Source of the DNA: Nitrospirillum viridazoti CBAmc
GTDB lineage: Bacteria > Pseudomonadota > Alphaproteobacteria > Azospirillales > Azospirillaceae
NCBI RefSeq assembly: GCF_000730165.1
Contig: NZ_CP022113.1
Location: 124,001 to 188,000, forward strand
Length of the DNA stretch: 64,000 bases
Direction: 5' to 3'
The notes under the pieces were generated by a model, which worked only from the letters and a program-made list of their open reading frames with translations, was not told the DNA's origin and ran no database searches. This document shows, one piece after another, positions 36,271 through 62,061 of this stretch. The translations under genes were made by a program, and so were the position numbers. Position 1 is the first letter of the stretch. Each line of letters opens with the position of its first letter.

Positions 36271-36354
36271 ATGACCGTTGCGTCCAACGACCGCCGCCTT
36301 GATGGAATCCCGGTCCGCTTGGATCGTTGCATTACCGGAACGGATGGTCGCTGA
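36271..36354 (+). CDS. 27-codon leader ORF before chorismate mutase
   Basis: Frame starting ATG ACC GTT with a strong AAGGGG ribosome site 4 bases upstream, coding MTVASNDRRL...TGTDGR and ending TGA at 36352-36354. The stop overlaps the chorismate mutase ATG by one base (TGATG). The larger gene has no clear ribosome site of its own, so this small ORF may drive its translation by re-initiation. It has no aromatic-residue run, so it is not a classical aromatic attenuator. Peptide function unknown. Confidence 0.55.
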   Translation: MTVASNDRRLDGIPVRLDRCITGTDGR

Positions 36355-41630: not shown

Positions 41631-41822
41631 GGGTGCGGGCTCCATGAAGGCGTGGGGGAAGCCCGGGGTAGGGCCCCGGTGCTCACGCGTCGGATTTGGC
41701 CCGTAAGCAGGGGCGGGTTTCATTCACAACCCGCCCTGCCGTTGTTGCGCCAACCGCATCACCTCTGCGGTGTTCCGGCGGCCCCTTCGGGCCTACGACG
41801 GCATGACCTCATGCCGCTGGCG

Positions 41823-46653: not shown

Positions 46654-47379
46654 TCACCCCCGCCCCAGGAAGGGCTGCCCTATCGGCAGGATCACGGATT
46701 CCAGGACGTTGATCTCTGCCGGCATCGCCGCGACGCAGTGGATCAGGTCGGCCACGTGTTCCGGCTGCATGGTTTGTTCCGGGCCAAGCCGGTCCAGCCC
46801 GGGAACCAAGTTCGTCATGGCCGAGCCCGGGCGGATGACGCCGGCGGTGATGCCGTGGCCGCGGCCGTCCAAGGCGATGGCGCGCGTCAGCCCGTCCAGC
46901 GCGAATTTCGACGCGGTGTAGGCGGCGGTGTCCTCGCGCGGGGTCAAGGCGGAGATGCTGCCGACCATCAGGATGCGCCCCCGCCGACGGGGTTTCATCA
47001 GCCTAACGGCCGCGCGGCTGCACAGGAACGCCGACGTCAGGTTGATGTCCAGCACCGCCCGCCACCGGGCCAGGGTCAATTCCTCCAGCGGGGTCTTGTC
47101 GGCGATGCCGGCATTGTTCACCAGCAGATCGGGGGAGCCGAGGTCATGGCCGATGGCGGCGAACACGTTCTCCACTTGATCTTCCCGCGTCACGTCGGCG
47201 GCGTAGGCCTGGGCGCTGCCACCGGCGGCCCGCGCCTCGGCCGCGACCGCCTCCAGCCGATCCAAGCTGCGGGCGACCAAGGCAACCTTCATGCCCGCCG
47301 CCGCCAGCCTGCGACCCACGGCCGCCCCGATGCCGGAACTGGCGCCTGTCACGATCGCCACCTGGCCGGAAAGATCCAT
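46654..47379 (-). CDS. Short-chain dehydrogenase/reductase (YdfG/NADP-serine DH-like)
   Basis: 241 residues. Cofactor motif TGASSGIGAA, NNAG in LLVNNAGIAD, and catalytic Ser (GSISALT) and YTASKFA. The C-terminus (HVADLIHCVAAMPAEINV) is typical of classical SDRs acting on small hydroxy acids or aldehydes such as YdfG. GAGGA precedes the ATG. It is divergent from a YkgJ-family gene with only 48 bases between starts, so they share a promoter region. Confidence 0.87.
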   Translation of the reverse strand: MDLSGQVAIVTGASSGIGAAVGRRLAAAGMKVALVARSLDRLEAVAAEARAAGGSAQAYAADVTREDQVENVFAAIGHDLGSPDLLVNNAGIADKTPLEELTLARWRAVLDINLTSAFLCSRAAVRLMKPRRRGRILMVGSISALTPREDTAAYTASKFALDGLTRAIALDGRGHGITAGVIRPGSAMTNLVPGLDRLGPEQTMQPEHVADLIHCVAAMPAEINVLESVILPIGQPFLGRG

Positions 47380-47997: not shown

Positions 47998-49410
47998 TCA
48001 ATGGGCACCGTGGACCACCCGGATTTCGGCGTAGGAGCGCAAGCCGGCCACGCCCATGCCCCGCCCGATGCCAGATTCCTTGAAGCCGCCGAACGGCAGG
48101 TCGGGTGTGGCGCCGCCGTGGCCGTTGATCCAGACGGTGCCGGCTTCCAGCCGCCGGGCGACGGCCTCGGCGCGGGCCTGGTCGCCACTCCAGACCGAGG
48201 CGCCCAGGCCGAAGCGCGTGGCGTTGGCCCGCGCCACCGCTTCTTCCTCAATGTCGAAGCCCAGGATGGGCAGCACCGGCCCGAACTGTTCCTCATCCAC
48301 CAGGCGCGCGCCCTCGGTGAGGCCGGTGACGATGGTGGGGGCGATGAAATAGCCCGGCCGGTCCAGGGCGCCACCCCCGGCCAGGATGCGTCCGCCCCGC
48401 GCCCGCGCGTCCTGGAGGATGGCCAGCACCTTGTCGAACTGCGGCCGGTTCTGCACCGGGCCCAAGTCGACGTCCGGCTCGAACCCGTTGCCCAGGCGCA
48501 CCCGCCGCGCCTCCGCCGCCAGGGCTTCGGCCAGCGCGTCGGCGATGGCGGCCTGGGCGTAGACGCGTTTCACCGCCATGCAGATCTGGCCGCTGTTGGC
48601 GAAGGCGCTGGCGAACAGACGGGGGGCGACCGCCGCCACGTCCACATCGTCCAGGACGATGGCGGCGTCGTTGCCGCCCAGTTCCAGCGACACTCTCTTC
48701 AGGGTCGCGGCGGCGGATGCCATTACCTTCTTGCCGGTGGCGGTCGAGCCGATGAAGGCGATCTTGTCGATGCCGGGATGGGTGGTCATCCACCGTCCCA
48801 GGGCGTCGCCACCCGACAGGGTGTTGACCAGCCCGGCCGGCAGGGCGCGGGCGGCGATTTCCCCCAGGCGCAGCGTGGCCAGCGGCGTGAAGGGCGAGGG
48901 CTTCACCACCACCGCGTTGCCGGCGGCCAGGGCCTGGGCCACCATCTGCATGGCCAGGATCAGCGGCGCGTTCCAGGGCGCGATCACCCCCACCACGCCC
49001 ATGGGGACGTAATCCAGGCGCACCGGCCCTTGCGGCCCCTCCCGCAGATAGCCGCCGCCGATGTCCAGCGCCGCCGTCCCCTCGATCCGGTCGGCGGCCA
49101 CCGCTACCTCGCGCCGCGCGGCGGTCAGGGGCTTGCCCTGCTCCCGCGTCAGCAGGGCGGCCAGCGCCTCCGTCTCCGCGCGGATGGCGTCGGCGAAGGC
49201 GCGCATGGCCGCGCGGCGGGCGGCCGTGTCCACCTGCCGCCAGGAGAGGAAGGCCGCCCGCGCGGCGGCGACCGCCAGGTCCAGGTGCGCCTCGCTGGCG
49301 TCCGGCGCCGTCGCGAAGGGCTCACCAGTGGCGGGATCGATGACGGGAAACGCACCATCGGCGGCCATGCCTTCGCCGCCGATGGTGAGAAGGAAGGGCG
49401 CCGACATCAT
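47998..49410 (-). CDS. Aldehyde dehydrogenase, vanillin/benzaldehyde type
   Basis: 470 residues. NAD-binding signature GSTATGKKVM, general base in LELGGND and the nucleophile Cys in SGQICMAVKR are present. It overlaps the upstream CMD gene by four bases (ATGA). In hydroxycinnamate pathways the lyase releases an aromatic aldehyde (vanillin from feruloyl-CoA), which this enzyme should oxidise to the acid. As the hydratase-lyase here has altered active-site residues, the actual aldehyde may differ. Confidence 0.88.
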   Translation of the reverse strand: MMSAPFLLTIGGEGMAADGAFPVIDPATGEPFATAPDASEAHLDLAVAAARAAFLSWRQVDTAARRAAMRAFADAIRAETEALAALLTREQGKPLTAARREVAVAADRIEGTAALDIGGGYLREGPQGPVRLDYVPMGVVGVIAPWNAPLILAMQMVAQALAAGNAVVVKPSPFTPLATLRLGEIAARALPAGLVNTLSGGDALGRWMTTHPGIDKIAFIGSTATGKKVMASAAATLKRVSLELGGNDAAIVLDDVDVAAVAPRLFASAFANSGQICMAVKRVYAQAAIADALAEALAAEARRVRLGNGFEPDVDLGPVQNRPQFDKVLAILQDARARGGRILAGGGALDRPGYFIAPTIVTGLTEGARLVDEEQFGPVLPILGFDIEEEAVARANATRFGLGASVWSGDQARAEAVARRLEAGTVWINGHGGATPDLPFGGFKESGIGRGMGVAGLRSYAEIRVVHGAH

Positions 49411-49745
49411 GACTTGCCTTCAGCCTGTCGCTGCTGGACCACCTCCAGGAACTTGCGGCTGGCGGAGATGGCGGACGGCCAGGACGCGTAAAAGGCCAGG
49501 TGGTTGATGGCCTCGCCGATCTCTTCCACCGTCAGGCCGTTGTCCAGCGCCAGGCCCAGATGGGCCGGCAGCTGCTCCGGCCGGTACATTGAGATCAGGG
49601 CGGCGATGGTGACCAGGCTGCGGTCGCGCTTGGACAGGCCCGGCCGCTCCCACACCTCGTTGTACAGAATGCGGTCGGTGTATTCGACCAAGGCCGGCAC
49701 AACCGCCGCCAACTCATTTCCCTTGCCGCTGCTTGGCCTTTGCAT
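49407..49745 (-). CDS. Carboxymuconolactone decarboxylase-family (CMD) protein
   Basis: 112 residues. The CMD core shows ERPGLSKRDRSLVTIAALI and the active helix LPAHLGLALDNGLTVEEI. The AhpD-type CxxC motif is absent, so it belongs to the PcaC-like group. PcaC-type proteins act in protocatechuate breakdown. It lies 66 bases downstream of the hydratase-lyase and overlaps the dehydrogenase start, so it is in the same operon; role in the pathway unknown. Confidence 0.83.
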   Translation of the reverse strand: MQRPSSGKGNELAAVVPALVEYTDRILYNEVWERPGLSKRDRSLVTIAALISMYRPEQLPAHLGLALDNGLTVEEIGEAINHLAFYASWPSAISASRKFLEVVQQRQAEGKS

Positions 49746-49810
49746 GCGTGGCTCCCTTCCATGCCGGGGGTCTCTGATCGCGCCGGACCAAAGCCCCCTT
49801 ATCGTGCGGG

Positions 49811-50692
49811 TTATTCGGCGCGGACGTAGTTGCCCAGGCCGGGGCGGAAGGACTTCTCGTCCAGGAACTGCTTCAGGCCCTGCTCCTTGCCGCGCTCCGG
49901 ATCCACGAAATTGGTCTGGTCGACCTTGGCGGTCAGGTATTCCGACGCCTGCTCCCAGGTCATTTCGCGCGCATACTTGTAGGCCATCCGGGCCTGGCGC
50001 AGCACGGTGGGGTTCTTGCCCAGCAGCGTCCGGGCGATTTCCGCCGTCCGGGCCCGCAGCTGTTCCTTGGGCACCGCCTCGTTGGCCAGTCCCAGCGCCA
50101 CGGCCTTGGCGCCGTCGAACTTCTCGCCCGACATGACATAGTACAGCGCCTGGCGGTCGCCCATCACGGTGCTGATGGCCTTGGAGACGACGCCGCCGGG
50201 GATGACGCCCCAGTTGATTTCCGACAGCCCGAACACCGCCTTTTCATCGGTGACGGCCAGGTCGCAACAGATCAGCGGCGTGAACGCGCCGCCGAAGCAC
50301 CAGCCGTTGACCATGGCGATGGTCGGCTTGGCGTAGTGCATCAGGGTGCGCCATTGCCAGGCTCGCGTGGAGCGATAGGCGCGGTGGCGCTCGATATCGG
50401 ATAGCCCGTCCGTGGCCCGGAAGAAGTCCTTCAGGTCCATACCGGCGGAGAAGGCCTCGCCCACCCCGGTCAGGACGACGACGCCGCAGCGGTCGTCGGT
50501 TTCCAGCGCGTCCAGCACCTCGTTCATCTCACGGGCCAGCCCGACGCTCATGGCGTTGCGCTTGGCCGGCCGGTTGAGCTGTACCCAGGCGATGCCGTCC
50601 TCAAACTCGACCAGTACTTCCTTGCCACCCGGGATGGGCTTTTCGGCAACGGGCGTCTCAATTTTCGTCATATCGGATGCCATGGCTTCCAC
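49811..50692 (-). CDS. Hydroxycinnamoyl-CoA hydratase-lyase-like (FerB/Ech family)
   Basis: 293 residues from GTG 50692, with AGGAG 7 bases upstream that overlaps the ferA stop. It aligns along its length to Pseudomonas HCHL: NRPAKRNAMS, MVNGWCFGG and the catalytic Glu in LSEINWG (E158, equal to E143). Three substrate-pocket positions differ from the studied enzyme by my alignment from memory: Phe90 for Tyr75, Thr138 for Ser123 and Thr254 for Tyr239. The tyrosines bind the 4-hydroxyl of feruloyl-CoA. Chain cleavage of a different cinnamoyl-CoA is therefore possible. Confidence 0.85.
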   Translation of the reverse strand: MEAMASDMTKIETPVAEKPIPGGKEVLVEFEDGIAWVQLNRPAKRNAMSVGLAREMNEVLDALETDDRCGVVVLTGVGEAFSAGMDLKDFFRATDGLSDIERHRAYRSTRAWQWRTLMHYAKPTIAMVNGWCFGGAFTPLICCDLAVTDEKAVFGLSEINWGVIPGGVVSKAISTVMGDRQALYYVMSGEKFDGAKAVALGLANEAVPKEQLRARTAEIARTLLGKNPTVLRQARMAYKYAREMTWEQASEYLTAKVDQTNFVDPERGKEQGLKQFLDEKSFRPGLGNYVRAE

Positions 50693-50703
50693 GGGGATGC
50701 TCC

Positions 50704-52806
50704 TCAGTCGGCGATGAACAATGCATCAAGCGCCATGACCCCCTCGCCCTCCGCGAAGACGGTCAGGGGGTTGACGTCCACTTCTTTGATTTCGGGATGG
50801 GCTCGCAGCAGGGTGCCCAGCGCCATGACGGCGTCGGCCACAGCTTCCACGTCTCGCGGCGCTTGGCCGCGGAAGGCGCCCAGCAACTTGGCGCCGCGCA
50901 TCCGTCGCAGACGCTCCAGGATCTGATCACGGCCGGCGTGGGCCGGCAGCATCTCGATGGCGTCCAGAGCCTCTACCCACACGCCGCCCAGGCCTAACAC
51001 CACGAAGGCGCCCCAGTCCGGGTCGTTGCGGCCGCCAATCACCAGTTCCAGGCCCGGCCGCGCCATCTGCTCGATCAGGATGCCGTCGATAGCCCCACCA
51101 GCCCTGGCCCGATCCGCGCTGTCCGTCAGGCGCCGCCAGCCGGCGCGCAGCGCCGCTTCGTCCTTGACGCCGACGATGACGCCGCCGACTTCGCTCTTAT
51201 GGGTCAGCCAGGTCGCCTGCAGCTTCATGACCAGGGGGTAGGTGATGCGCGAGGCCGCCGCGACGGCGGCCTCGACGTCCTGGACCAGCGCACCTTCGGG
51301 CACCGGGATACCTATGGCCGAAAGCAGGGCCTTGCCCTCATATTCCGGCAGGGGGCCATGCCGCGACAGCGCCGGCGCCGGGGGCGGCGGCGCTGTGCGT
51401 TCCGCGGCCCGCGCATACGCCACGGCCCGGCCGTTGACGGCGCGGAAGGCTCGCAGCGCCCGCTCCGGTGAACGGAACAGCGGCGTGCCGGTTTCGCGCA
51501 AGGGCGCGACGCAGCCGGGATCCAGCGGCGATTCATCGCCCAGGATGGCGACGGTGACCGGCTTGGACGCCGTCAGGGCGACGGGGGCGATGGCCTCCGC
51601 CTTCGCGCGCTGCTGCCAGGGACCGCCGCCGGCCATGGCCAGCAGGACGGAACCGACGGCGGGATCGGCCAGCATGGCGCTGGTGGTTTTGCCGAAGACG
51701 GACGCGTCGGAGAAGCCGGCGGTGCCGACATCCAGAGGATTGCTGATCTCGCATTGCGGCGGCAGCAGCTGGCGCAAGGTGTCCGCCGTGTCCCTACCCA
51801 GGGCCGCCACCTCCAGGCTGATCTTCTCACAGAAATCGAGGCTGAGGCCCCGCACCGCGCCGGAATTGGTGATGACGCCGACCCTGCCTTGTGTCGGCTC
51901 GGGGAACCGGTAGAGGATGGCGGCGGCGTCGAACAGTTCGTCCATGGTTTCGACCAGGACGACGCCTTCATCCTCCACCGCCGTCTTCATGGCAGCGTAG
52001 TCGCTGACCATGGCGCCGGTATGTGACAGCGCCGCCGCCCGGCCTGACGCGCTGGCGCCGGGATGAACCATCAGGATGGGCCGGCCGGCCTCCCGCGCCA
52101 CCCGCGCCGCCGCCAGGAAGGCGGCCGGGTCGCGGATCTGCTCGACATAGGCGGCGATCAGGCCCACGCCTTCGTCCACCAGATGGCGGATGACATGGTC
52201 GATGCGGACGACCGCCTCATTGCCGGTGGTGACCACGTGCGAAATCCGCGCGCCGCGCGCCAGCAGGGCGGACCGGATGTTGGACGCCATGGCGCCGCTC
52301 TGGGCCACCACCGCGGCATGCGGCGGGCCGGCCATCGGCTGGAAGTCCAGCGATTCAAAGCTGAGCGCCGCGCCGTTGGCGTAGTTGACGAAGCCCAGGC
52401 AGTTGGGGCCCAGCAGCGCCAGGCCGCCGGTCCGGCACATAGCCGCGATTTCCTCCTGCTCGCGACGACCTTCCTCTCCCGCTTCGCCGAAGCCGGCGGC
52501 GAAAACGACGGCGCCGCCCACGCCTCGTTCGATGCAGGCCCCGATCGCCTCGCGCACCGCCTTGTGTGGCACGTTCAGAACCGCGACATCGACGCCGTGG
52601 GGCAGGTCGTGCAGCGATTTCAGGCAGGGAACGCCATTGATCTCGGTGCGCGTCGGGCTGACCAGGTACAGCGGCCCGGTGAAACCGGACCCCGCGATGT
52701 TGCGCAAAACGGCGCCGCCCAGCGACGCGGGCTCGGGCGAGGCGCCCGCCACGGCGACCGAGCGTGGCTGCAGCAGGCGTGTCAAATCCAGTTGGGGGGC
52801 CCGCAT
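50704..52806 (-). CDS. ferA: NDP-forming acyl-CoA synthetase (FerA-like)
   Basis: 700 residues with both halves of the NDP-forming acyl-CoA synthetase fold fused. The N-terminal CoA-binding/ligase part has SVAVAGASPE and LLGPNCLGFVNY, and the region ALSHTGAMVSDY; the C-terminal ATP-grasp part has YEGKALLSAIGIPVPEG and PLVMKLQATWLTHKSEVGGV. This is the type of the SYK-6 feruloyl-CoA synthetase FerA. It would activate a hydroxycinnamate for the downstream lyase. ATG directly follows the aldolase stop (TGAATG). Gene symbol by analogy only. Confidence 0.82.
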   Translation of the reverse strand: MRAPQLDLTRLLQPRSVAVAGASPEPASLGGAVLRNIAGSGFTGPLYLVSPTRTEINGVPCLKSLHDLPHGVDVAVLNVPHKAVREAIGACIERGVGGAVVFAAGFGEAGEEGRREQEEIAAMCRTGGLALLGPNCLGFVNYANGAALSFESLDFQPMAGPPHAAVVAQSGAMASNIRSALLARGARISHVVTTGNEAVVRIDHVIRHLVDEGVGLIAAYVEQIRDPAAFLAAARVAREAGRPILMVHPGASASGRAAALSHTGAMVSDYAAMKTAVEDEGVVLVETMDELFDAAAILYRFPEPTQGRVGVITNSGAVRGLSLDFCEKISLEVAALGRDTADTLRQLLPPQCEISNPLDVGTAGFSDASVFGKTTSAMLADPAVGSVLLAMAGGGPWQQRAKAEAIAPVALTASKPVTVAILGDESPLDPGCVAPLRETGTPLFRSPERALRAFRAVNGRAVAYARAAERTAPPPPAPALSRHGPLPEYEGKALLSAIGIPVPEGALVQDVEAAVAAASRITYPLVMKLQATWLTHKSEVGGVIVGVKDEAALRAGWRRLTDSADRARAGGAIDGILIEQMARPGLELVIGGRNDPDWGAFVVLGLGGVWVEALDAIEMLPAHAGRDQILERLRRMRGAKLLGAFRGQAPRDVEAVADAVMALGTLLRAHPEIKEVDVNPLTVFAEGEGVMALDALFIAD

Positions 52807-53595
52807 TCAGACCTCCCCCCGGCCGACGCGGAACGGGGCGACCTTGTCCATCGCCGCCTTCAGCGCGTTCTTGTACATGACCATGTCGGACTGCCAGGCG
52901 ATGTAGCGGGCGCCGCGCCCGACCCAGGCCTTCAGGCCGTCGGGGCTGCTGGCCACCACGCCGTAGTGCTTGCCGGCGCGGGCGCAGGCTGCAACGACCT
53001 CATCCACCACCTTGGCCACGTCGGGATGGTCCGGCTCGCCCGGATGGCCCAGGGACTGGCTGAGATCGCCGGTGCCGATGAAGGCGACGTCCAGTTGGTC
53101 CAGGGCGCACAGCGCGTCGATGTCGGCGGCCATGCGCGCGTTCTCGACATGGACGGCGATCAGCGTGTCGCGATTGGCTTGCTCGATGTAGGTCTTGGCC
53201 GGGGTGTAGGCGTAGTCGCCCGCCCGGCAGCCGGGGGCCCAGCCGCGCTCGCCCAACGGGTGGTATTTGGCCCGGCGGATGACGGCGCCGGCCTCGGCGG
53301 CCGAGCTCAGCGATGGCACCTGCACGCCGCTGGCCCCACTATCCAGGGCGTGCAGGATGGTGGCCTCGCCGGCATCGCTGGTGCGGACGATGGCGCTCAT
53401 CCCCACCAGCTGCGCCGCGCGGATCAGGTCCTCGACCTCGCCATGCGTGAAGTTCGCGTGTTCGGTATCGATGATGATGAAGTCAAAGCCGGCGAGGCCG
53501 ATCATCTCCACCAAATTCGCGGACGCGAACTTGACGAACGTGCCGATGACGACCTCGCCCTTTTCCAGGCGCCGTTTGGCTAGGCTATTGATCAC
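52807..53595 (-). CDS. HpcH/HpaI-family aldolase
   Basis: 262 residues. The TIM-barrel metal-dependent class II pyruvate aldolase family is indicated by IIIDTEHANFTHGEVEDLI, the metal Glu in VHVENARM, the Asp in GTGDLSQSLG and the Arg/His residues in RAKYHPLGERGW. Members cleave or form bonds with pyruvate, such as 4-hydroxy-2-oxoheptanedioate aldolase. It is the first gene of the leftward operon with ferA, ferB, CMD and ALDH. A pyruvate-releasing step is not part of the standard ferulate route, so its substrate may be unusual. Confidence 0.85.
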   Translation of the reverse strand: MINSLAKRRLEKGEVVIGTFVKFASANLVEMIGLAGFDFIIIDTEHANFTHGEVEDLIRAAQLVGMSAIVRTSDAGEATILHALDSGASGVQVPSLSSAAEAGAVIRRAKYHPLGERGWAPGCRAGDYAYTPAKTYIEQANRDTLIAVHVENARMAADIDALCALDQLDVAFIGTGDLSQSLGHPGEPDHPDVAKVVDEVVAACARAGKHYGVVASSPDGLKAWVGRGARYIAWQSDMVMYKNALKAAMDKVAPFRVGRGEV

Positions 53596-53956
53596 AAAGC
53601 ACCTCCCGCCTGCGACGTCTCTTGGGACCGGACGTCTGCCGCCCGGTCATCCAATGCAAACGTGGATGGGGAATCAAATGCTGATTGATGCCTTGTCCGA
53701 TAACGGCCCGGTATCGGAGGGCGCTGCCTACGGACCGATGCCGTGGCGGTATCGGAGCGCTGGTCAAAAAGAATTAGACGGCTAACGATGTAGCGGTCCT
53801 ACTGTTCTCATAAACTATTGCCGGGAATTTCAAGAAAGCTCCGCCGGGCCTCCATGTCGCTTGGACGTGTAGCATCTTGAAGAGCGTGTGGGAGGCGGCG
53901 TGTACGGAAAGAACGACTTGCGGGCTTCATTGGCGCCGTCGGCGGAAAAGGTGGCC
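53596..53956. promoter_or_regulatory. 361-base divergent promoter region with two CGGTATCGG motifs
   Basis: CGGTATCGGAG at 53709-53719 and again at 53747-53757, 38 bases apart. The first also forms a 6-9-6 inverted repeat with CCGATA at 53697-53702. The region separates the aldolase-ferA operon from the cupin operon. The same 9-mer stands before the TBDR at 59049. Probable operator shared by both operons; no regulator gene is in the cluster. A GTG at 53888 could extend the cupin by 23 codons. Confidence 0.55.
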
Positions 53957-54808
53957 ATGACCCCTTTCAAGCCGGCCTCTTACGGTCGCTTCTATGAAGA
54001 GATGCCGGTGGAGGAGAGCGAATTGGCTTCCACCTGGCTGACGCGTGGCCAGAACCTGATCGTGGCCTACAGCGCCGTGCGTTCCGGCGCGGTGCTGGCG
54101 CGCTCAGGCCAGATCGATGAATACGCCGTCGTCCTTCCCGACGCGGGTTTGAGTGTTGAGATTACGGCCGGCGGCCAGACGGAGACGGCGCACGGGCCGT
54201 GCGTGGCCTTCATCCCGCCCGGCGACAGCAGCGTCCGCGCGCTGGGCGACGGCGGCCTCTATCGGCTGATCACCACCCGGTCGGCGGATCTGGCGGCCCG
54301 TTGCGCCAACGCCGGCGACTTCGCCACGCCCGATCTGAACGTTCCGGAGTTCACGCCCTGGCCCGACCCGGTCGGCGGCTGGCGCATTCGGGTCTATTCC
54401 GGCGACGTGCCGTCGCAGCCGGGCCGCTTCGGCAGAATCTACCGCTGCACCACCATCATGGTGAACCTGACCAGCGGCCGCGCGGGTCCCCGCGACCCGG
54501 CCGACTTGTCACCCCACCACCATGATGATTTCGAGCAGTATTCCATCGCCACGGCGGGCGAATTCATCCACCACCTGCGCTGGCCCTGGACGGGGAACAG
54601 CGCGCACTGGCTGGAGGACCAACATGCCTACTGCGCGGCGCCGTCGGTCGCGGTGATACCACCGCCGGCGACCCATACCTCGCAGGGGATGAGCACCGGC
54701 CTCAACCGCCTGGCGGACGTTTTCTGCCCGCCGCGCCACGATTTCTCCGCCCGCGAGGGCTGGGTGCTGAACGCGGCCGACTATCCGGCGCCGGACCCGG
54801 CGCCATAA
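53957..54808 (+). CDS. Cupin-fold protein of unknown function
   Basis: 283 residues from ATG 53957 (MTPFKPASYGRF), with AAGG upstream; a GTG at 53888 is possible. The N-terminal half looks like a degraded cupin (PCVAFIPPGDSS), and the C-terminal half has metal-binding-like His residues in SPHHHDDFEQYSI, GEFIHHL and VIPPPATHTSQ, the two-motif cupin pattern. It may be an isomerase or dioxygenase-like protein. It is first in the rightward operon with a DUF6282 protein, a carrier and two amidohydrolases. I do not recognise a characterised homologue. Confidence 0.7.
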   Translation: MTPFKPASYGRFYEEMPVEESELASTWLTRGQNLIVAYSAVRSGAVLARSGQIDEYAVVLPDAGLSVEITAGGQTETAHGPCVAFIPPGDSSVRALGDGGLYRLITTRSADLAARCANAGDFATPDLNVPEFTPWPDPVGGWRIRVYSGDVPSQPGRFGRIYRCTTIMVNLTSGRAGPRDPADLSPHHHDDFEQYSIATAGEFIHHLRWPWTGNSAHWLEDQHAYCAAPSVAVIPPPATHTSQGMSTGLNRLADVFCPPRHDFSAREGWVLNAADYPAPDPAP

Positions 54809-54869
54809 ACAGGAACCCCAAATACGAACCGCGGCCAGCGCGGCGCATCTGAAAACGGGAGGATAGAGT

Positions 54870-55781
54870 ATGACGGATCGCAGGATTGACGATCTGCTGG
54901 TCGGTGCCGTGGATCTGCATTGCCACAGCGGCCCTTCGGTCATGCCGCGCCGGCTGAACCATGTCGAGGCCATCAGGGACGCCGAGGCCGCCGGCCTGCG
55001 GGCCATCCTGTTCAAGGATCACTATTATTCGGTGACGCCCGTGGCCGAGCTGCTGAAGGAGACGATGAATCCCAAGATTCAACTCCTGACCGGCGTTCCA
55101 CTGAATAACACCACGGGCGGCCTGAACCCCTACGCGGTGGAGCATGGCTTCAAGCTAGGCGCCCGCTTGGTGTGGATGCCCACCTTCTCCGCCGCCAACC
55201 ACATCCGCCATTCGCATCGGCGCCAGTTCCTGCCCACGAAGGACCAGATGCTGCCGCCGCGCGCCCTGACCGTGGTGGATGATCGCGGCGCGCTGCTGGA
55301 CGAGGTCAAGGTCATCCTGGACCAGATCGCGCAGTATGACGCCATCCTCTCCGCCGGCCATCTGCACATCAGCGAGATCTGGCCGCTGTTCGCCGAGGCG
55401 AAGACGCGGGGAGTCAAGCGCCTGCTGGTCAACCATCCCACCTTCCTCATCGGCTGCGGCCCGGCCGACATGAAGGAACTGGCCGGCATGGGCGCCTATC
55501 TGGAGCATTCGTGCTGCATGTGGGCCGGCGTCCAGGGCAAGAACTACACCGCCGACAGCTTGAACCAGGTGATCAAGGCCGGCGGCGTGGACAGCACCAT
55601 CATCGGCTCCGACCTGGGCCAGGTGGGCAACCCAACGCCGGTGGAAGGGTTCCGCCATGTCATCGGCATGTGTATCGAGTTGGGCTATTCCGACGACGAC
55701 ATCCGCAAGATGATCAGCCTGAACGCCAGCCGGCTGGTCGGGTTGGACGAACCGGCGCGTGAGCAATCCGCCGCGGAGTGA
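54870..55781 (+). CDS. DUF6282-family, amidohydrolase-like TIM-barrel protein
   Basis: 303 residues preceded by GGGAGGATAG. DLHCHSGPS near residue 15 is a metal-binding HxH motif like those of amidohydrolase-superfamily enzymes; FKDHYYS, HLHISEIW, VNHPTF and GSDLGQ supply further His/Asp residues of a metal barrel. DUF6282 proteins lack an assigned function. With two more amidohydrolase-2 proteins downstream, this is the first of three metal hydrolases or decarboxylases in one operon. It probably acts on a ring-cleavage or lactone intermediate; inferred only. Confidence 0.75.
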   Translation: MTDRRIDDLLVGAVDLHCHSGPSVMPRRLNHVEAIRDAEAAGLRAILFKDHYYSVTPVAELLKETMNPKIQLLTGVPLNNTTGGLNPYAVEHGFKLGARLVWMPTFSAANHIRHSHRRQFLPTKDQMLPPRALTVVDDRGALLDEVKVILDQIAQYDAILSAGHLHISEIWPLFAEAKTRGVKRLLVNHPTFLIGCGPADMKELAGMGAYLEHSCCMWAGVQGKNYTADSLNQVIKAGGVDSTIIGSDLGQVGNPTPVEGFRHVIGMCIELGYSDDDIRKMISLNASRLVGLDEPAREQSAAE

Positions 55782-55846
55782 TCCTGGCCGGCGGCGGGGA
55801 ACGCCGCCGCGCCACAATAAAAATCCAGACCAGGGAGGTACCGAGC

Positions 55847-57178
55847 ATGCCGGCCAATCCGCTTGACGCCATCGCCGTCACGCCGATGCGTTTGCGGCAG
55901 TACGTCATCGTTGCGCTGTGCTGCTTGATCAATGTCACCGAGGGTTACGACATGATGTCGGCGGCCTACACGGCGCCGTTGTTCTCCGCCGAATGGGCCG
56001 TGCCCAAGGCGACCCTGGGCCTGCTGTTCAGCATGGGGTCGCTGGGCTTGGCGCTTGGCGCGTTCGTGGCGGCGCCCCTGGGGGAACGGCTGGGTCGGCG
56101 CGGCGTGACGCTGATCGCCCTGGTCGCCATCACCATCGCGCATGGCCTGTCGTCGATCGCCGCTTCCATTGAGGTGCTGATGGCCCTGCGCTTCCTGATG
56201 GGGGCGGGGTTGGGCATCCTGGTCGTCAGCCTGAACGTGCTGGTGTCCGAGTTCGCCAACAACCAGCGGCGCAACCTCATGCTGTCGATGCTGCACACCG
56301 GCTTCACCATTGGCATGATGATCGGGGGGGCGGTCGCCGGCTTCCTGCTGGTGCCGTACGGCTGGCGGTCGGTCTACGTCTTCGGCATGGGCATGAACGC
56401 CGTGCTGCTGCTGGCGTTGGCCCTGTTCATGTGGGAATCACCCGCTTATCTGGTGTCGGCGCAGCCCCGGGGCGCCCTGGCCCGCATCAACCGGATCCTG
56501 GCCGGCCTCGGCCTCGATCCGCTGGTTGAACTGCCGCCGCGGCCCGAGCGGGCGCGGAAGGAGAATGGCGCGGTCGCCCTGCTGGCCAAGGATGCCTGGC
56601 GGCTGTCCGTCCTGATGTGGCTGGCCTCCTTCATCTATGCCTTGGTCGGCTATTTCCTGCTGAACTGGAAGCCGACGGTGCTGGTGGAGGCCGGGCTGAC
56701 GCCGACGCAGGCCAGCTTCTCCGGTGTGCTGCAGGGCATCGTCGGTGCCACCGGCCACCTCACCGTGGGCGCGTTTTCCCGCCGCGTGGGTGAGGCGCGC
56801 ATGACCGCCATCTTCTTCATCCTGATGGGTGCGATGCTGGTCCTGTTCGGCAGCGTGCATGCCGGGGTGCCGGTGATGATCGCAATGGCCTGCGTGCTGA
56901 CCTACTTCACTGTCGGCGCCTATACTGGCGTGTTCCTGACCGCCATCGCGCTCTATCCCCAGCGGCTGCGCAATTTCGGCGTGGGCTTCGTCGTCGGGTT
57001 CGGGCGCGCCGGCGCCGTCGTCGGTCCGTTGATCGGCGGCCTGCTGCTGGGGGCGGATGTGGGGCGGGCGGCTACCTTCGCCTTCTTCGCCGCCATGAGC
57101 GCGATACCGGCGGTCGCGATGCTGCCCCTGAGCCGCAAGCCCGGCCAGCCGGCCCCGCTGACCACCGCGCCGACCTGA
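55847..57178 (+). CDS. MFS aromatic-acid:H+ symporter-like carrier
   Basis: 443 residues from ATG 55847, with GGGAGG upstream; an upstream extension overlapping the previous gene was rejected. Twelve hydrophobic segments. The first has INVTEGYDMMSAAY (the EGYD motif is near the DGYD motif of the AAHS family) and the inter-helix loop GERLGRRGV fits the MFS loop 2-3 signature. AAHS proteins such as PcaK and VanK import benzoate-type acids. It should import the aromatic acid or its derivative across the inner membrane after TBDR transport. Confidence 0.85.
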   Translation: MPANPLDAIAVTPMRLRQYVIVALCCLINVTEGYDMMSAAYTAPLFSAEWAVPKATLGLLFSMGSLGLALGAFVAAPLGERLGRRGVTLIALVAITIAHGLSSIAASIEVLMALRFLMGAGLGILVVSLNVLVSEFANNQRRNLMLSMLHTGFTIGMMIGGAVAGFLLVPYGWRSVYVFGMGMNAVLLLALALFMWESPAYLVSAQPRGALARINRILAGLGLDPLVELPPRPERARKENGAVALLAKDAWRLSVLMWLASFIYALVGYFLLNWKPTVLVEAGLTPTQASFSGVLQGIVGATGHLTVGAFSRRVGEARMTAIFFILMGAMLVLFGSVHAGVPVMIAMACVLTYFTVGAYTGVFLTAIALYPQRLRNFGVGFVVGFGRAGAVVGPLIGGLLLGADVGRAATFAFFAAMSAIPAVAMLPLSRKPGQPAPLTTAPT

Positions 57179-57218
57179 CCATACGGCACGATACGATAAT
57201 CGGGGGGATGAAGGGGCT

Positions 57219-58118
57219 ATGAGCCAGCAAGCGGGCAGGGAACCGATCTACGACGCGCACGCGCACGTCTTCACCAATGATGCGGCGCGCTATCCCATGG
57301 ACACGCGCAACGCGCGGGAGGGGGAGGACAACCTGCGCCGGCGCATTGCCGCCGACCCCATAACGGCGGAGCGACTGCGGCAGTGGTGGGAAGCCAGCGG
57401 CGTCGTCGCCGGTGCGGCCGTGCAGTACAACACCATTTACAAGACCGACAACCGCTACCTGCTGGACGCCACGTACGCGCATCCGGACAAGCTGTCGGCC
57501 GTGGTGATTCTGGACGCCCAGGATCCGGAGACGCCGGCGCAACTGACCCGCATGGTGATCGAGCGGGGGATCGTGGGCCTGCGCCTGTTCGGTTATCCCG
57601 ACGCCACCGGCGCCTATCCCTGGCTGGATTCCGAGGCGGCGCTCCGCACCTGGGCGGTCGCCGACCGCTTTGGCCTGACCATGGTGGTGATGTACGCCCC
57701 GGGCGTGGCCTCGCCCGCCCCGCTGGCCCGCGTCGGCAGCCTGGCCCGCCGATTTCCGCGCCTGCGTATCGCGCTGGACCATTTCGGCTGGCCGGGCGGT
57801 GGCGACCCTCAGCAGCTGGGCCTGGTGCCGGTGCTGGAGGCCATGCGGAAGCATCGCAACGTCTACTATAAGCTGACGACCATCAATTTCCGCATGTTCG
57901 ACCAAGCCGGCGTGGACCATGCGGCCTTCGTCCGCCGCGCGGTGGACGTCATGGGGGCAGACCACGTCATGTGGGGCTCCGACGTCGGCAACACCCAAGA
58001 AAGTTACGAGAGCATGGCCGCGCAGGCGCGCGCGTCGGCGGTGCTCCTCGATGAGACGGAGCGGCGGCTGTTCCTGTGCGACACGGCGCGCAGCCTGTTC
58101 CAGCGCGGCGACAGGTAA
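57219..58118 (+). CDS. Amidohydrolase-2 family protein (PDC hydrolase/decarboxylase-like)
   Basis: 299 residues. The HxH motif in YDAHAHVFTND, the late LDHFGWPG and WGSDVGN match the amidohydrolase-2 family that includes 2-pyrone-4,6-dicarboxylate hydrolase LigI, gamma-resorcylate decarboxylase and ACMSD. It probably hydrolyses a lactone or decarboxylates an aromatic or ring-cleavage acid. The next gene starts 6 bases after its stop, so the two are cotranscribed. Which reaction is not certain. Confidence 0.83.
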   Translation: MSQQAGREPIYDAHAHVFTNDAARYPMDTRNAREGEDNLRRRIAADPITAERLRQWWEASGVVAGAAVQYNTIYKTDNRYLLDATYAHPDKLSAVVILDAQDPETPAQLTRMVIERGIVGLRLFGYPDATGAYPWLDSEAALRTWAVADRFGLTMVVMYAPGVASPAPLARVGSLARRFPRLRIALDHFGWPGGGDPQQLGLVPVLEAMRKHRNVYYKLTTINFRMFDQAGVDHAAFVRRAVDVMGADHVMWGSDVGNTQESYESMAAQARASAVLLDETERRLFLCDTARSLFQRGDR

Positions 58119-58123
58119 GCGCC

Positions 58124-58936
58124 ATGACGGTTGAGCGCCCCTTTGCCGAACCGCCCATCGTCGATGCGCATGCCCACATCCTGACACGGCGCATGCCATT
58201 GCGGGACGATGCCTGGATCCGGCCGGACTATGATTACACGGCCGAGGATTTCCTGGAGGACCTGGACCGGCACGGCATCGCCTTCGGGATCGTCACCGCT
58301 GCCAGCCTCTACGGCGATTACAACGACTACACCCTGTTGGCGCTGGGGCGGTACCGGCGCCTGCGCGCGACGGTGATGCTGCAGCCCGACACCGACCTGG
58401 CGACCCTGCGCCACCTGCGGGACCAGGGCGTCGTGGGCGTGCGCATGCAGTGGAAGGTAGACCAGGCGCCGCCCGACTTGCGCAGCTATCCCTACCTGAA
58501 ATTCCTTAATCGCCTGGCCGACTGCGGCATGCATGTCGAGTTGAACGCCAGCGCCGTCCAATTGGCCATCGTGCTGCCGGCGTTGGAAGCGCACGGCGTC
58601 AACGTCGTGGTCGATCACTTCGGCCTGCTGCGTGCGCCGGAAGGTATGGAGGGCGCCGGCTTCCAGGCCATGCTGCGGGCGGTCGCGGCGGGGCGGACCT
58701 GGGTCAAGATCTCCGCGGGCTTCCGCCTGGACCCGGCGATCCGCCAGGCCTGCGCGGCGCGCCTGCTGGTGGAGGCCGGTGGGGAGCGCCTGCTGTGGGG
58801 CAGCGACGCGCCCTTTGTGGGGAAGGAAGGCGCCGTGACGTACGCGGACGCCCTTGCACACTTCCATGCGCTGGTGCCGGACCCGGCGGTGCGCCGCCAG
58901 ATTTCCGACGCGGCGTTGCGTCTGTGCTTCTTCTGA
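58124..58936 (+). CDS. Second amidohydrolase-2 family protein
   Basis: 270 residues from ATG 58124 (MTVERPFAEPPIVDAHAH); upstream in-frame start rejected because it lies inside the previous gene. It has the metal HxH in VDAHAHILTRR, the VDHFGLLR motif and LLWGSDAPFVG near the C-terminus. It resembles but is not identical to the preceding protein: the regions after HxH differ, so a different substrate is likely. Together with the DUF6282 gene this is a three-enzyme metal-hydrolase set. Confidence 0.83.
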   Translation: MTVERPFAEPPIVDAHAHILTRRMPLRDDAWIRPDYDYTAEDFLEDLDRHGIAFGIVTAASLYGDYNDYTLLALGRYRRLRATVMLQPDTDLATLRHLRDQGVVGVRMQWKVDQAPPDLRSYPYLKFLNRLADCGMHVELNASAVQLAIVLPALEAHGVNVVVDHFGLLRAPEGMEGAGFQAMLRAVAAGRTWVKISAGFRLDPAIRQACAARLLVEAGGERLLWGSDAPFVGKEGAVTYADALAHFHALVPDPAVRRQISDAALRLCFF

Positions 58937-59048
58937 CGCGGGCGACCGCATCAAATCAGGGACCTCTTTTCCGAGTATGGGGTGGGCTCCACCGCGTGAG
59001 CGCCCTTTCCCCTTAAGGGCTTGGCTTGGGCGATTTTTGATGCCGAAA

Positions 59049-59057
59049 CGGTATCGG
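59049..59057. promoter_or_regulatory. CGGTATCGG motif upstream of TBDR
   Basis: CGGTATCGG in AAACGGTATCGGTTT, with symmetric AAAC/GTTT flanks as in a regulator operator. It is about 107 bases before the TBDR start. Copies of the 9-mer at 53709 and 53747 suggest a shared regulator. Further on, CCGAATG/CATTCCGG (59129-59146) forms a hairpin just before the ribosome site. Confidence 0.5.
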
Positions 59058-59163
59058 TTTTGCCGATTGCGGCATTGGATTTTCGTCATCGTATAAATGA
59101 ATATGAAAATAACAAACAATGAGCATCCCGAATGACCTTCATTCCGGAGCGGGGAGGGAACAG

Positions 59164-62061
59164 ATGAGCGATAGGCTGCCTAACGATTCCAGCCAACTGT
59201 TCTTGGGCACAGGCGGTCGCCGGCCGCTGAAATATGGGGCCGTCAGCCTGCTGGCCATCAGTGCCGCGCTGGCGATGACCGCGCCGCACCAGGCCGCTGC
59301 GCAGAGTGTCCCGGCGGAAGCCAGCGCGCCTGCGGGGGACCTTGAGGAAATCATCGTGACCGGCACGCGCATTTCCGGCTTCACGGCGCCCACGCCGATG
59401 ACGTCGCTGAGCGCGGTGCAACTGCAGGACAAGGCGGTCAGCACCGTCGCGGACATGCTGCTTGAAGTGCCGCAGTTGCGGATCAATCAGAACATCGGCA
59501 AGTCCAGCGAACCGATCGGTGCCTCCAACGCCGACCTCCGTGGCTTGGGCACGCAGCGCACCCTGGTGCTGATGAACGGCAACCGTGTCGGCATCACCGA
59601 TCCGGCCGGGACCATCGACACCAACATCATTCCCGTGGCGTTGATCAAGAACGTCGACATCGTCACCGGGGGCGCCTCCGCCGCCTACGGTTCCGACGCC
59701 GTCGCCGGTGTGGTCAACTTCGTCCTGGACAAGGATTTCGAGGGAGCGAAGGCCGACATCTCCTACGGATCGACGGAGCATGACGACTTCCGCCGTCCGG
59801 ATGTCAATTTCGCCCTGGGCCATGGCTTCGCCGACAACAAGGTGCACATCGAGGTCGCGGGCGACTTCATGCACAATTCGGGTGAGAGCAGCCAGGCGTC
59901 GCGCTCCTGGGGCGCCAACGGCACCGTGCAGTTGACCAACCCGGCCTATACCAAGACCAACGGCCAGCCGCGCCTGCTGATCGTCGACCACGGCACCTAC
60001 TCGCAGATGACGGCCGGCGGCGTTGTCGGCCTGTCGGGCGGCACCAACACACTGGCGCTCAGCCTGGCCAACAAGCTGGGCTTCGCCCCGGGCACGGGCG
60101 TGCAGTTCGGGTCCGACGGCAAGCCCACCCCGTTCCAGTATGGCACCAACATCGGCGCCACCTTCATGCAGGGCGGCGGCGGCGGCTCCGCCATCAATGA
60201 CGGCAACCTGCTGCCGGAGATCGACCGCAAGAGCGGTTACGGCCGGATCAGCTATCAACTGGCCGACAACATCACCCTGTTCGCGGACATGCTGTATTCG
60301 CAGGTCCACGCCAATTCGGACCTGGCGCCCAATCCCGACGTCGGCACCATCACCATCCGCAACGACAACGCCTTTCTGGATCCCAGCGTCAAGGCGGCGA
60401 TGGCGTCGCTGAAACTGGCCAGCATTCCCTTCGGTCGCCTCAACTACGAGGATGGGAATTCCGAGTTCCGGACCGTGACCAAGACCCGCCGCTGGACCTT
60501 CGGCGCCGAGGGTTCCTTCGGGCGGAACTGGAACTGGAGCGTTACCGGTCAGCTGGGCCGCAACACCTATGATGAGTTCGCGGACAACAACCGCATCTCG
60601 CAGCGGTGGACTTACGGCCTGGACTCGGTGATCAACCCGGCCACGGGCCAGGCCATCTGCCGGGTGAAGCTGGCCAACCCGAACCCTACGGCGGCCCAGG
60701 ACCCGTATGGCGACATCCGCAGCTGCGTGCCCATCAATCCCTTCGGTGCAGGCTCCATCAGCCAGCAGGCGCTGGGCTACTACCTCGGCACCTCGACCAT
60801 CACCGCGGACATGCATCAGGACGTCTACGCAGCCAACATATCGGGCTCGCCCTTCTCCACCTGGGCGGGGCCGCTGTCGGTCGCGGCTGGCGCGGAATAC
60901 CGCATCGAGAAGACGGTTCAGACCTCGGACGCGAACTCCGTGCTCAGCCGCTGGCGGTCCATCAACGGGCAGCCATTCTCCGGCGAATACAATGTGAAGG
61001 AAGCATACAGCGAGGTCGTGGTGCCGCTGGCCGAGGACATGACGCTGGCCCACAAGCTGGAGCTCAACGCCTCGGGCCGCTATACCGAGTATTCGACCAG
61101 CGGTGGCGTCTGGGCCTGGAAGTTCGGCGGCAACTACGAACCGATCGAGGACGTGCGTTTCCGTGGCACAGTGTCCCGCGACATCCGCGCGCCGAACAAC
61201 TATGAGCTGTTCTCGCAAGGCAACCAGGTGATCAACGCCATCATCGACCCCCGCACCAACGTGGCGCGGCAGACGACGCAGATCACGGGCGGCAATCCCA
61301 ACCTCCTGCCTGAGGAGGCGGACACCTATTCGGTGGGCGTCGTCTTCAAACCGAGATGGCTGGACGGGTTCCATGCCTCTCTCGACTACTACAACATCGA
61401 GATCAAGAATGCGATTTCCACGGTGGCGGCGCAGGACATCGTGAATTTCTGCTTCAATGGGCAGTCTGTGTTTTGCTCTGGTGTCATCCAGACGGGGGGT
61501 ATCATCACCCGCGTCAACATCATCCCCTTCAACGCCAACTCCCAGCGGGCGGCGGGCGAGGACTTCGAGGCTGAGTATTCTTTCCCCCTCACCCTGCTGA
61601 ACAACGATGGGGATGTGCAACTGCGGGTCCTGGCCAACCATGCCGATACGCTGACCACAACGGCGAACGGCGTATCCAACGACTATGTCGGCCTCGCCGG
61701 CATCTCACCGCCCCCGGCGGGCGTGCCGGAATGGCGCGTGAACGTCGACGCCAACTACAGCTTCGACAAGTGGAGGCTCGGGGTGGGCTATCGCTATATC
61801 TCTGGCGGCAAGTTCGACACACGCTTCAACCTGACCACCTTGGACATCGCCAACAACGACATCTCCGGCATCGGGTATTGGGACGCCAACGTCTCCTACC
61901 GGCTGAACGAGAACCTGACGATTTACGGCTCTGTCGAGAATCTGACCGATGAGGCCCCGCCGATCACGCCCAACGGCATCGTGCAGCCTACCATCGCCAA
62001 CTCCCCCTTCTTCGACAATCGCGGCCGCTTTTGGGTATTGGGCGTGCGTGCACGGATGTGA
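59164..62061 (+). CDS. TonB-dependent outer-membrane receptor
   Basis: 965 residues from ATG 59164, preceded by GGGGAGGG. Signal peptide to about residue 47 (AAAQSV), TonB-box-like LEEIIVTGTRI (about 59-69), plug with LRGLGTQRTLVLMNGNR and GGASAAYGSDAVAGVVNFVL. The barrel ends VLGVRARM, without the usual terminal aromatic residue. It is last in the rightward operon or has its own promoter at 59049. It likely imports the aromatic substrate of the cluster. An intrinsic terminator follows. Confidence 0.92.
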   Translation: MSDRLPNDSSQLFLGTGGRRPLKYGAVSLLAISAALAMTAPHQAAAQSVPAEASAPAGDLEEIIVTGTRISGFTAPTPMTSLSAVQLQDKAVSTVADMLLEVPQLRINQNIGKSSEPIGASNADLRGLGTQRTLVLMNGNRVGITDPAGTIDTNIIPVALIKNVDIVTGGASAAYGSDAVAGVVNFVLDKDFEGAKADISYGSTEHDDFRRPDVNFALGHGFADNKVHIEVAGDFMHNSGESSQASRSWGANGTVQLTNPAYTKTNGQPRLLIVDHGTYSQMTAGGVVGLSGGTNTLALSLANKLGFAPGTGVQFGSDGKPTPFQYGTNIGATFMQGGGGGSAINDGNLLPEIDRKSGYGRISYQLADNITLFADMLYSQVHANSDLAPNPDVGTITIRNDNAFLDPSVKAAMASLKLASIPFGRLNYEDGNSEFRTVTKTRRWTFGAEGSFGRNWNWSVTGQLGRNTYDEFADNNRISQRWTYGLDSVINPATGQAICRVKLANPNPTAAQDPYGDIRSCVPINPFGAGSISQQALGYYLGTSTITADMHQDVYAANISGSPFSTWAGPLSVAAGAEYRIEKTVQTSDANSVLSRWRSINGQPFSGEYNVKEAYSEVVVPLAEDMTLAHKLELNASGRYTEYSTSGGVWAWKFGGNYEPIEDVRFRGTVSRDIRAPNNYELFSQGNQVINAIIDPRTNVARQTTQITGGNPNLLPEEADTYSVGVVFKPRWLDGFHASLDYYNIEIKNAISTVAAQDIVNFCFNGQSVFCSGVIQTGGIITRVNIIPFNANSQRAAGEDFEAEYSFPLTLLNNDGDVQLRVLANHADTLTTTANGVSNDYVGLAGISPPPAGVPEWRVNVDANYSFDKWRLGVGYRYISGGKFDTRFNLTTLDIANNDISGIGYWDANVSYRLNENLTIYGSVENLTDEAPPITPNGIVQPTIANSPFFDNRGRFWVLGVRARM

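Follow-up and report, generated by a model that had tools for sequence, protein, structure and literature searches.

A stretch of the Nitrospirillum viridazoti CBAmc genome in which two operons diverge from one intergenic region is probably the core of a single catabolic island. We analysed a window of 64 kb, part of contig C4 of the 7.38 Mb genome (G000). With a probability of roughly 0.55, we read the locus as the centre of an island that has probably spread in part by horizontal transfer and that serves one substrate class, a cinnamate-like or other alpha,beta-unsaturated acid, and not an ordinary free-4-hydroxy cinnamate such as ferulate. We class the locus as a CoA-dependent catabolic cluster for side-chain cleavage whose lower half is unusual; its features in the window are as follows.

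46654..47379, minus strand: SDR-family oxidoreductase, end of the leftward operon; 25 NCBIfam SDR matches listed, all below cut-off
47998..49410, minus strand: aldehyde dehydrogenase (ALDH); PF00171, 1.6e-147
49407..49745, minus strand: carboxymuconolactone-decarboxylase-family protein (CMD); PF02627, 2.4e-18
49811..50692, minus strand: p-hydroxycinnamoyl-CoA hydratase/lyase (HCHL)-type enzyme, Tyr75 to Phe variant; NF006588, residue comparison and one clade of 19 cluster copies
50704..52806, minus strand: nucleoside diphosphate (NDP)-forming acyl-CoA synthetase with FerA-type domain order; CoA_binding_2, Succ_CoA_lig, ATP-grasp_5
52807..53595, minus strand: HpcH/HpaI-family class II pyruvate aldolase (HpaI); PF03328, 3.6e-28; PDB 3qz6, 2vws and others
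53767..53782, plus strand: promoter/operator-like motif AAAAGAATTAGACGGC in the divergent intergenic region; matrix match of 18.9 bits, the best in the window
53888..54808, plus strand: predicted bicupin protein without a family; model pLDDT 89.5, bicupin structure matches, alignment A3
54870..55781, plus strand: DUF6282 protein, predicted amidohydrolase-type metal hydrolase; PF19799, 1.1e-72; model pLDDT 90.1
55778..57178, plus strand: MFS transporter of the aromatic acid/H+ symport (AAHS) type; PF07690; TIGR00895 259.2 bits, below the cut-off of 418.55
57219..58118, plus strand: AH1, Amidohydro_2 protein; PF04909, 2.4e-31; alignment A7
58076..58936, plus strand: AH2, Amidohydro_2 protein related to LigI and 2ffi; PF04909, 4.8e-31; alignment A6
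59119..62061, plus strand: TonB-dependent receptor-like outer-membrane protein (TBDR); open reading frame (ORF) of 980 aa, syntenic copies
62188..63792, minus strand: GMC oxidoreductase (alcohol oxidation), with which the extended part begins; NCBIfam matches of choline-dehydrogenase type, below cut-off

Transcription runs leftward in the order HpaI-FerA-HCHL-CMD-ALDH-(SDR) and rightward in the order cupin-DUF6282-MFS-AH1-AH2-TBDR, and in both operons several genes overlap or nearly touch. The eleven genes that the preliminary description had placed between 47998 and 62061 are all present as ORFs, with names backed by Pfam or NCBIfam except for the 'cupin', which has no family match, and the TBDR, whose name comes from its sequence and from syntenic copies. 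Those boundaries were too narrow: the SDR gene and the GMC oxidase gene belong to the cluster, which extends about 11 kb past the window. Most enzyme names hold at the level of the family, and among the matches listed HCHL alone reaches an NCBIfam equivalog cut-off.

The proposal that the two operons form one system is borne out by their co-conservation and by a shared promoter motif. In a sample of 82 genomes of the order (own genome included), DUF6282 matches occurred in eight, and matches of at least 89% identity only in the own genome, in G073 (Niveispirillum) and in G063 (same genus as the window); both operons are syntenic in G073 (70–89%; its loci L011 and L016 are one contig and were counted once) and in G063 (L012; 92–98%). 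With the own genome set aside, the best identities reported in a class-wide sample of 385 genomes were 68% for the hydrolase ABH1 (see below), 66% for DUF6282 and 58% for HCHL, indicating a scarce background. From a scan of named genomes for DUF6282 relatives we took the best 80 of 286 loci, so that the 63 of these with DUF6282 below 70% identity are a sample of the distant class; their contigs are sometimes short, with both flanks reaching at least 2 kb in 58 of the 63 and at least 5 kb in 46. Every one of the 17 named loci whose DUF6282 reaches at least 73% identity has FerA, HCHL and cupin genes in its fetched flanks. Together with the congener G063 we call these the cluster loci; the named ones span Niveispirillum, Terricaulis, Marinicaulis, Rhizorhabdus, Sphingomonas, Novosphingobium, Sphingobium and others. 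Of the 63 distant loci, none showed FerA in the flanks fetched, and two showed a weak HCHL-like hit (25–30%).

Gene order changes between carriers, but the gene set comes back. In sphingomonads ALDH lies behind DUF6282, with AH2-AH1-MFS inverted; in Marinicaulis HpaI-FerA-HCHL share a strand with cupin-DUF6282, and nearly the whole set lies within about 33 kb, together with a BphC-type extradiol dioxygenase and a fumarylacetoacetase-type protein, although no IclR or VOC copy was matched there. Thirteen of the 17 named cluster loci have AH2 at most 5 kb from DUF6282, and 13 have a GMC homologue at most 10 kb from it. HpaI of at least 53% identity is present in 19/19 cluster genomes. Syntenic copies of the SDR gene occur in L011 (75%) and L012 (96%), with further copies within the cluster in L017 (61%) and L031 (51%), and the TBDR, named from its sequence and its syntenic copies, recurs in L012 (97%) and, truncated where the contig ends, in L011 (71%). 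Mere adjacency of two unrelated operons is hardly credible: DUF6282, cupin and HpaI do occur without FerA and HCHL in more distant relatives, but the two operons occur jointly in Azospirillaceae, Caulobacteraceae, Parvularculaceae and sphingomonads despite the changed order, and a promoter motif is common to both.

This motif, G[AC]ATT[AG]GAC (AAAGAATTRGACG), is found in the divergent intergenic regions on the cupin side in 14 of 18 loci (the exact site is missing in L018–L020 and L027) and on the FerA side also in 14 of 18 (missing in L012, L016, L017 and L031), counts that are not independent because the sequences are related. We built a matrix of 16 columns from 28 sites of 18 other loci, a set that holds no window site but does include the near-copy site of L012. 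Its top match in the window is at 53767, upstream of the cupin gene, and the next best, at 14.4 bits, lies inside an ORF call. Past the window, in the stretch L015, the best match (15.8 bits) falls between the LysR-type gene and ABH2, overlapping the most upstream possible ABH2 start; Marinicaulis has matches of 15.9 bits upstream of ABH2-LLM and of 17.1 bits between AH1 and CMD, the latter inside the longest CMD ORF call. None of these L015 and Marinicaulis sites was among those that built the matrix. When each locus was shuffled three times by mononucleotide, the mean number of hits at 14 bits was between 0 and 0.33. A perfect inverted repeat was also considered as the operator, but only a 5-base half-site recurs, in six loci, and the directly conserved motif describes the region better.

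The HCHL-type enzyme scores well above the curated cut-off of NF006588 (406.5 against 276 bits) and keeps, in 2j5i numbering, Glu143, which we take to be the catalytic glutamate and which is Glu in 19/19 cluster copies; position 239 is Thr. Position 75, however, is Phe in the window and in all 19 cluster HCHLs, as against Tyr in 4/4 solved relatives and in 24 of 29 control rows (other alphaproteobacterial sequences, two of them the own genome's other copies). Tyr75 presumably holds the phenolic hydroxyl of the substrate. In the tree the 19 cluster copies form one clade (support 100/100), within which a strongly supported subgroup (100/98) unites the copies of the window, the congener, Niveispirillum, Terricaulis and Marinicaulis. 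Elsewhere in the genome a second HCHL has Tyr75, Ser123 and Tyr239 and adjoins an aldehyde dehydrogenase gene, and a third adjoins an ORF that by eye resembles a ligase; because of these copies, ferulate is probably handled elsewhere in this genome.

An ordinary hydroxycinnamate route, in which FerA, HCHL and ALDH would turn ferulate, p-coumarate, caffeate or sinapate into a benzoate, with the remaining genes accessory or devoted to vanillate or syringate, seems rather unlikely to us. In its favour, HCHL passes the family cut-off, and its best solved relative, 6p5u, which we take to be the vanillin-making FerB_B11, is the sister row to the cluster clade, with modest support (82/73). On the other hand, Tyr75 is gone in every cluster copy, the genome already holds the classical HCHL and the third copy just described, and ferulate requires neither DUF6282, bicupin, HpaI and the luciferase-like monooxygenase (LLM), which are present in every carrier examined, nor AH1 and AH2. 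Of the names 'FerA-type' and 'HCHL-like' given earlier, the domain order of the synthetase and the HCHL family therefore stand, while the implication of ferulate is weakened, in view of the separate clade, Phe75, the second classical HCHL and the PDB relatives of the synthetase. The ferulate-to-vanillin systems FerA/FerB (Fcs/Ech, HCHL) share with the cluster the synthetase domain order, the HCHL family and an adjacent aldehyde dehydrogenase; the cluster differs in its Phe75 and own HCHL clade, in adding DUF6282, bicupin, HpaI, AH1/AH2 and LLM, and in that the classical HCHL sits elsewhere. Excerpts of PMC5863372 describe FerB_B11 as making vanillin together with a synthetase.

Some alphaproteobacteria (G140, G289, G378, G455) carry three to five HCHL paralogues, and the control rows with Phe75 come from G140 (three), G289 and G378. 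Because of these multiple paralogues and Phe75 rows, the sequences suggest that HCHLs have diversified beyond hydroxycinnamates.

The synthetase has its CoA-binding, succinyl-CoA-ligase-like and ATP-grasp domains fused in a single chain. Since its best PDB relatives are named for 4-hydroxybutyrate, 3-hydroxypropionate and dimethylsulfoniopropionate (DMSP), its substrate cannot be named from sequence. The aldolase keeps, in alignment with 3qz6, the Asp/His, Arg, Glu and Asp positions that we assume to be catalytic. It thus shares family and catalytic positions with the class II pyruvate aldolases HpaI, GarL and YfaU; it falls far below the cut-offs of all four NCBIfam equivalogs matched, including the 4-hydroxy-2-oxoheptanedioate aldolase TIGR02311 (136.8 against 368.8 bits), so that the family does not assign its substrate. 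CMD likewise falls short of the PcaC (4-carboxymuconolactone decarboxylase) cut-off (TIGR02425, 55.8 against 155.7 bits), and ALDH reached no NCBIfam cut-off among the 25 rows listed of 42. Between ALDH and SDR lies a small CxxCxxCC-type ORF (47428–47955) with copies in L016 and L012; the L016 copy (2406–2870) matches PF03692, and we regard this ORF as a conserved hitch-hiker.

Past the window (L015, roughly 64.0–75.3 kb in window coordinates) the cluster continues with a second ALDH, an IclR regulator, a FAD monooxygenase, the hydrolase ABH1 and a VOC protein, then a LuxR-type and a LysR-type gene (the LysR named from sequence) and the run ABH2-LLM-ABH3-CMD2-flavin reductase. The order GMC-ALDH2-IclR-FADMO-ABH1-VOC is repeated in Terricaulis. 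The best NCBIfam match of the FAD monooxygenase is 3-hydroxybenzoate 6-monooxygenase, at 282.5 of the 459 bits of the cut-off. ABH1 (74–96%) and LLM (72–97%) were both found in 18/18 cluster genomes, in fragmented assemblies on contigs other than that of DUF6282. A BphC-like protein of at least 53% identity occurs in 14 of 19 cluster genomes, on the DUF6282 or the LLM contig, with weaker matches only in G462 (best 38%) and G472 (best 41%). We had considered BphC-like proteins as substitutes for HpaI, and dropped the idea when a complementary pattern in the 10 kb flanks vanished once HpaI was found in 19/19 genomes. ABH1 itself (L015 5787–6968) matches Pfam Abhydrolase_1 marginally (26.4 bits against a cut-off of 25.8), and distant copies (39–68%) occur in 24 other genomes of the class sample.

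A further reading makes the substrate an unsaturated acid that is not aromatic, for instance abscisic acid or another terpenoid dienoate; CoA-dependent removal of two carbons would shorten its side chain, after which LLM and esterases would act on the resulting ketone. The loss of Tyr75 suits this account, an operon that combines LLM with flavin reductase and the esterase-like ABH3 would suit a Baeyer-Villiger step, and a precedent exists in Rhodococcus P1Y, where abscisic acid breakdown begins, according to excerpts of PMC7996341, with shortening of the acyl part to dehydrovomifoliol. Against it, the AAHS-type carrier, the 3-hydroxybenzoate-6-hydroxylase-like monooxygenase and the BphC-like extradiol dioxygenase of 14/19 genomes suggest an aromatic ring, and we hold such a substrate to be unlikely.

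The rightward operon supplies the unusual lower half. The 'cupin' has no Pfam or NCBIfam match at E 0.001, and a confident model folds it as two cupin barrels in one chain, i.e. a predicted bicupin. Alignment A3 (28 of 32 hits plus the window protein; L043 left out for a stop, and L024, L030 and L033 as near copies) displays a C-terminal His-His-Glu-His site and many invariant arginines. Known bicupins (oxalate decarboxylase, quercetinase, the AerE/BacB isomerases) are only 6–14% identical over the 50 rows listed, and seed globulins are among them, so the reaction is not predictable from these matches.

The DUF6282 protein models as an amidohydrolase-type barrel, a predicted metal hydrolase: the best Foldseek match is 2i5g (TM 0.66/0.62, E 2.2e-8), followed in the ranking by renal-dipeptidase and phosphotriesterase-type rows, and H17, H19, H164 and D248 (HxH, later His, terminal Asp) are invariant in 33 sequences. 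For the DUF6282 alignments we selected some of the 80 loci, leaving out L054 and L063 because of stops and trimming some ends. A PDB profile search with DUF6282 returned repeat proteins only, which we judged spurious. With two Amidohydro_2 proteins alongside this modelled barrel, the earlier count of three metal-dependent barrel enzymes was fair. In the congener G063, whose assembly has about 730 contigs, the DUF6282 gene (L012 11655–12562; G063:C243:23655–24562) falls into two reading frames; either the assembly is wrong at this point or the gene is broken, next to a cluster that is otherwise conserved. The start of the MFS transporter is probably an internal ATG.

AH2 belongs to the family of the 2-pyrone-4,6-dicarboxylate hydrolase LigI (4d8l, 3.9e-16, a distant match) and 2ffi (4.4e-40), and keeps the HxH, later His and Asp. 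Among the four LigI arginines that we assume to have a role in its function, those at 124 and 217 are kept and the residues at 130 and 183 are not Arg; with two of the four missing, we dropped AH2 as a LigI pyrone hydrolase. The same residues make it very doubtful that the amidohydrolases, DUF6282 and HpaI form a 2-pyrone-4,6-dicarboxylate/4-oxalomesaconate lower pathway for cinnamate-derived protocatechuate or gallate. The LigI and 2ffi matches would fit such a pathway, as would the neighbours of DUF6282 in Thermus oshimai (extradiol dioxygenase, PIG-L protein and 4-carboxy-4-hydroxy-2-oxoadipate aldolase); yet no gene of the island was recognised as coding for a protocatechuate or gallate dioxygenase, and the two LigB-type matches of the genome are on other contigs.

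More can be said of DUF6282 from its other surroundings. An HpaI-family gene lies within 2 kb of it in 53 of the 63 distant loci, a large or small cupin gene within 5 kb in 50, and a dihydroorotate-dehydrogenase-like gene within 5 kb in 37; as for the names of these neighbours, Pfam was run for one small cupin and one dehydrogenase-like protein. Of 11 plasmid regions with DUF6282 that were viewed, seven have an annotated aldolase/citrate-lyase gene nearby, and five of these seven also have TRAP or tripartite tricarboxylate transporter genes. Because of these HpaI-family, aldolase and transporter neighbours, we infer that DUF6282 probably acts on a small oxo- or hydroxy-carboxylate on the way to aldol cleavage. 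The Thermus oshimai copy lies on a plasmid in a putative protocatechuate/gallate-type meta-cleavage cluster (L101 6324–10990), a possible independent handle on the DUF6282 reaction. Two ideas were abandoned: plasmid carriage of the island, since the DUF6282 matches on plasmids are all below 60% identity, and 4-pyrones (kojic, comenic and chelidonic acid) as substrates of the wider DUF6282/HpaI core, for which the matches listed held no useful literature.

Comparison with RecA, together with the HCHL tree, suggests some horizontal spread of the island. Between the window and Terricaulis, DUF6282 (87%), HCHL (88%) and CMD (83%) all exceed RecA (72%); DUF6282 exceeds RecA in most other loci, including the sphingomonad-type ones (77–84% against 73–77%), and HCHL does so in many. 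In Marinicaulis HCHL (83%) is above RecA (78%) and DUF6282 (74%) below it. The stronger statement, that the whole cluster is more conserved than RecA, fails for FerA and cupin, which in sphingomonad-type loci reach 51–57% and 59–62%, and for this reason transfer remains a suggestion.

Several findings weigh against the reading as one island for a single, non-ferulate substrate class. FerA, cupin and HpaI of Terricaulis are at 68%, under RecA. Only 5 of the 17 named cluster loci have HpaI at most 10 kb from DUF6282; elsewhere it is farther off or on another contig (G464–G466 and the fragmented G476). In 4 of the 17 (L020, L023, L030, L031) the flanks fetched showed neither AH1 nor AH2, which may therefore be less central to the island, although L030 ends early and in L031 both genes lie about 23 kb off. 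The BphC-like protein has no match at E 1e-10 in the window genome, the congener or G475, and since it is present in 14/19 genomes the carriers differ in their lower pathway. Two stretches of R. histidinilytica, L149 and L150, gave no match to the motif, though L149 holds ABH2-LLM, and the Terricaulis match near ABH2 is doubtful, lying inside the overlap of two called ORFs; of the four genomes checked, two thus have a clear ABH2-LLM site. Since 5 of the 29 control rows also have Phe at position 75, this residue does not prove that the substrate is new. Even 6p5u, presumably the vanillin-making FerB_B11, deviates at position 239; we rejected Tyr239 as a second specificity marker, as it is gone in all cluster copies but also in 6p5u (Ala) and 7xwc (Ile). 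Finally, the contexts of DUF6282 in Thermus and Alicyclobacillus differ.

A few further genes were seen in and around the cluster. A FolD (tetrahydrofolate dehydrogenase/cyclohydrolase) gene, recognised by Pfam, lies inside the island in L020 (12384–13289), with an ORF cluster of five loci around FolD, and a MetE-like gene is present in Marinicaulis (L031 10942–11976); both hint at one-carbon release such as demethylation. An ORF adjoining LLM in Terricaulis (L152 7944–9092) looks by eye like a riboflavin (RibB-type) enzyme; a part in supplying flavin would fit. In the window, a gamma-type chorismate mutase gene (36327–36938; NF006741, 162.8 against a cut-off of 158) and an HPII-related catalase gene (40149–41723; far below the HPII cut-off) gave no sign of belonging to the island.

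Taken as one island for a cinnamate-like or other unsaturated acid, the genes can be arranged into a pathway. By their families, TBDR and the MFS carrier would take up the substrate; the GMC oxidase and the second ALDH may convert an alcohol or aldehyde form to the acid; and the NDP-forming synthetase would make the CoA thioester. The variant HCHL, with its catalytic Glu kept, would then hydrate the double bond and release acetyl-CoA, leaving a shortened carbonyl compound for ALDH to oxidise. The flavin monooxygenases (the 3-hydroxybenzoate-6-hydroxylase-like enzyme, and the luciferase-like one with its flavin reductase) and the alpha/beta hydrolases could next oxygenate and open the ring, after which AH1, AH2, DUF6282 and the bicupin may hydrolyse, isomerise or decarboxylate polycarboxylic intermediates and HpaI may free a pyruvate-type unit. 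In most of the other DUF6282 loci examined, an HpaI-family gene lies beside DUF6282. The order of the steps from ALDH onwards is a proposal. That the gene set exceeds what ferulate conversion needs, and that a longer route is served, was anticipated in the preliminary description and is supported here; the lactone hydrolysis, decarboxylation and pyruvate release that it named are, for their part, inferred from the enzyme families.

No characterised pathway with this gene set was found in the open-licence literature of PubMed Central, in agreement with the earlier expectation. The pinoresinol pathway of Novosphingobium is likewise a sphingomonad route, for a phenylpropanoid dimer; in excerpts of PMC12607616 it starts with reductive cleavage of the furan ring and ends in a lignostilbene-type dioxygenase, and a term search of the text available from that source returned no lactone, TonB, aldolase, cupin or luciferase, and GMC in one reference only. 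We would tentatively entertain a more specific possibility, an undescribed natural-product pathway in which a re-purposed HCHL no longer reads a free phenol (its substrate being, for example, a 4-O-linked phenylpropanoid, a lignan-type acid or a terpenoid dienoate) and in which DUF6282, cupin and HpaI form an unrecognised hydrolysis/aldol module that many Proteobacteria attach to different feeder pathways.

The reading of the locus as one island turns a set of odd neighbours into a single testable pathway of some two dozen genes. In every carrier examined at least seven of them were found, namely DUF6282, cupin, FerA, HCHL, HpaI, ABH1 and LLM. The reading also urges caution in counting genes annotated as ferA or HCHL in such genomes as ferulate genes. 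The island includes a protein family without known function, DUF6282, and a bicupin that belongs to no family, and so offers a route to the function of DUF6282. Should the substrate turn out to be an acid from lignin or plants, the island would be a new entry point for its use by bacteria.

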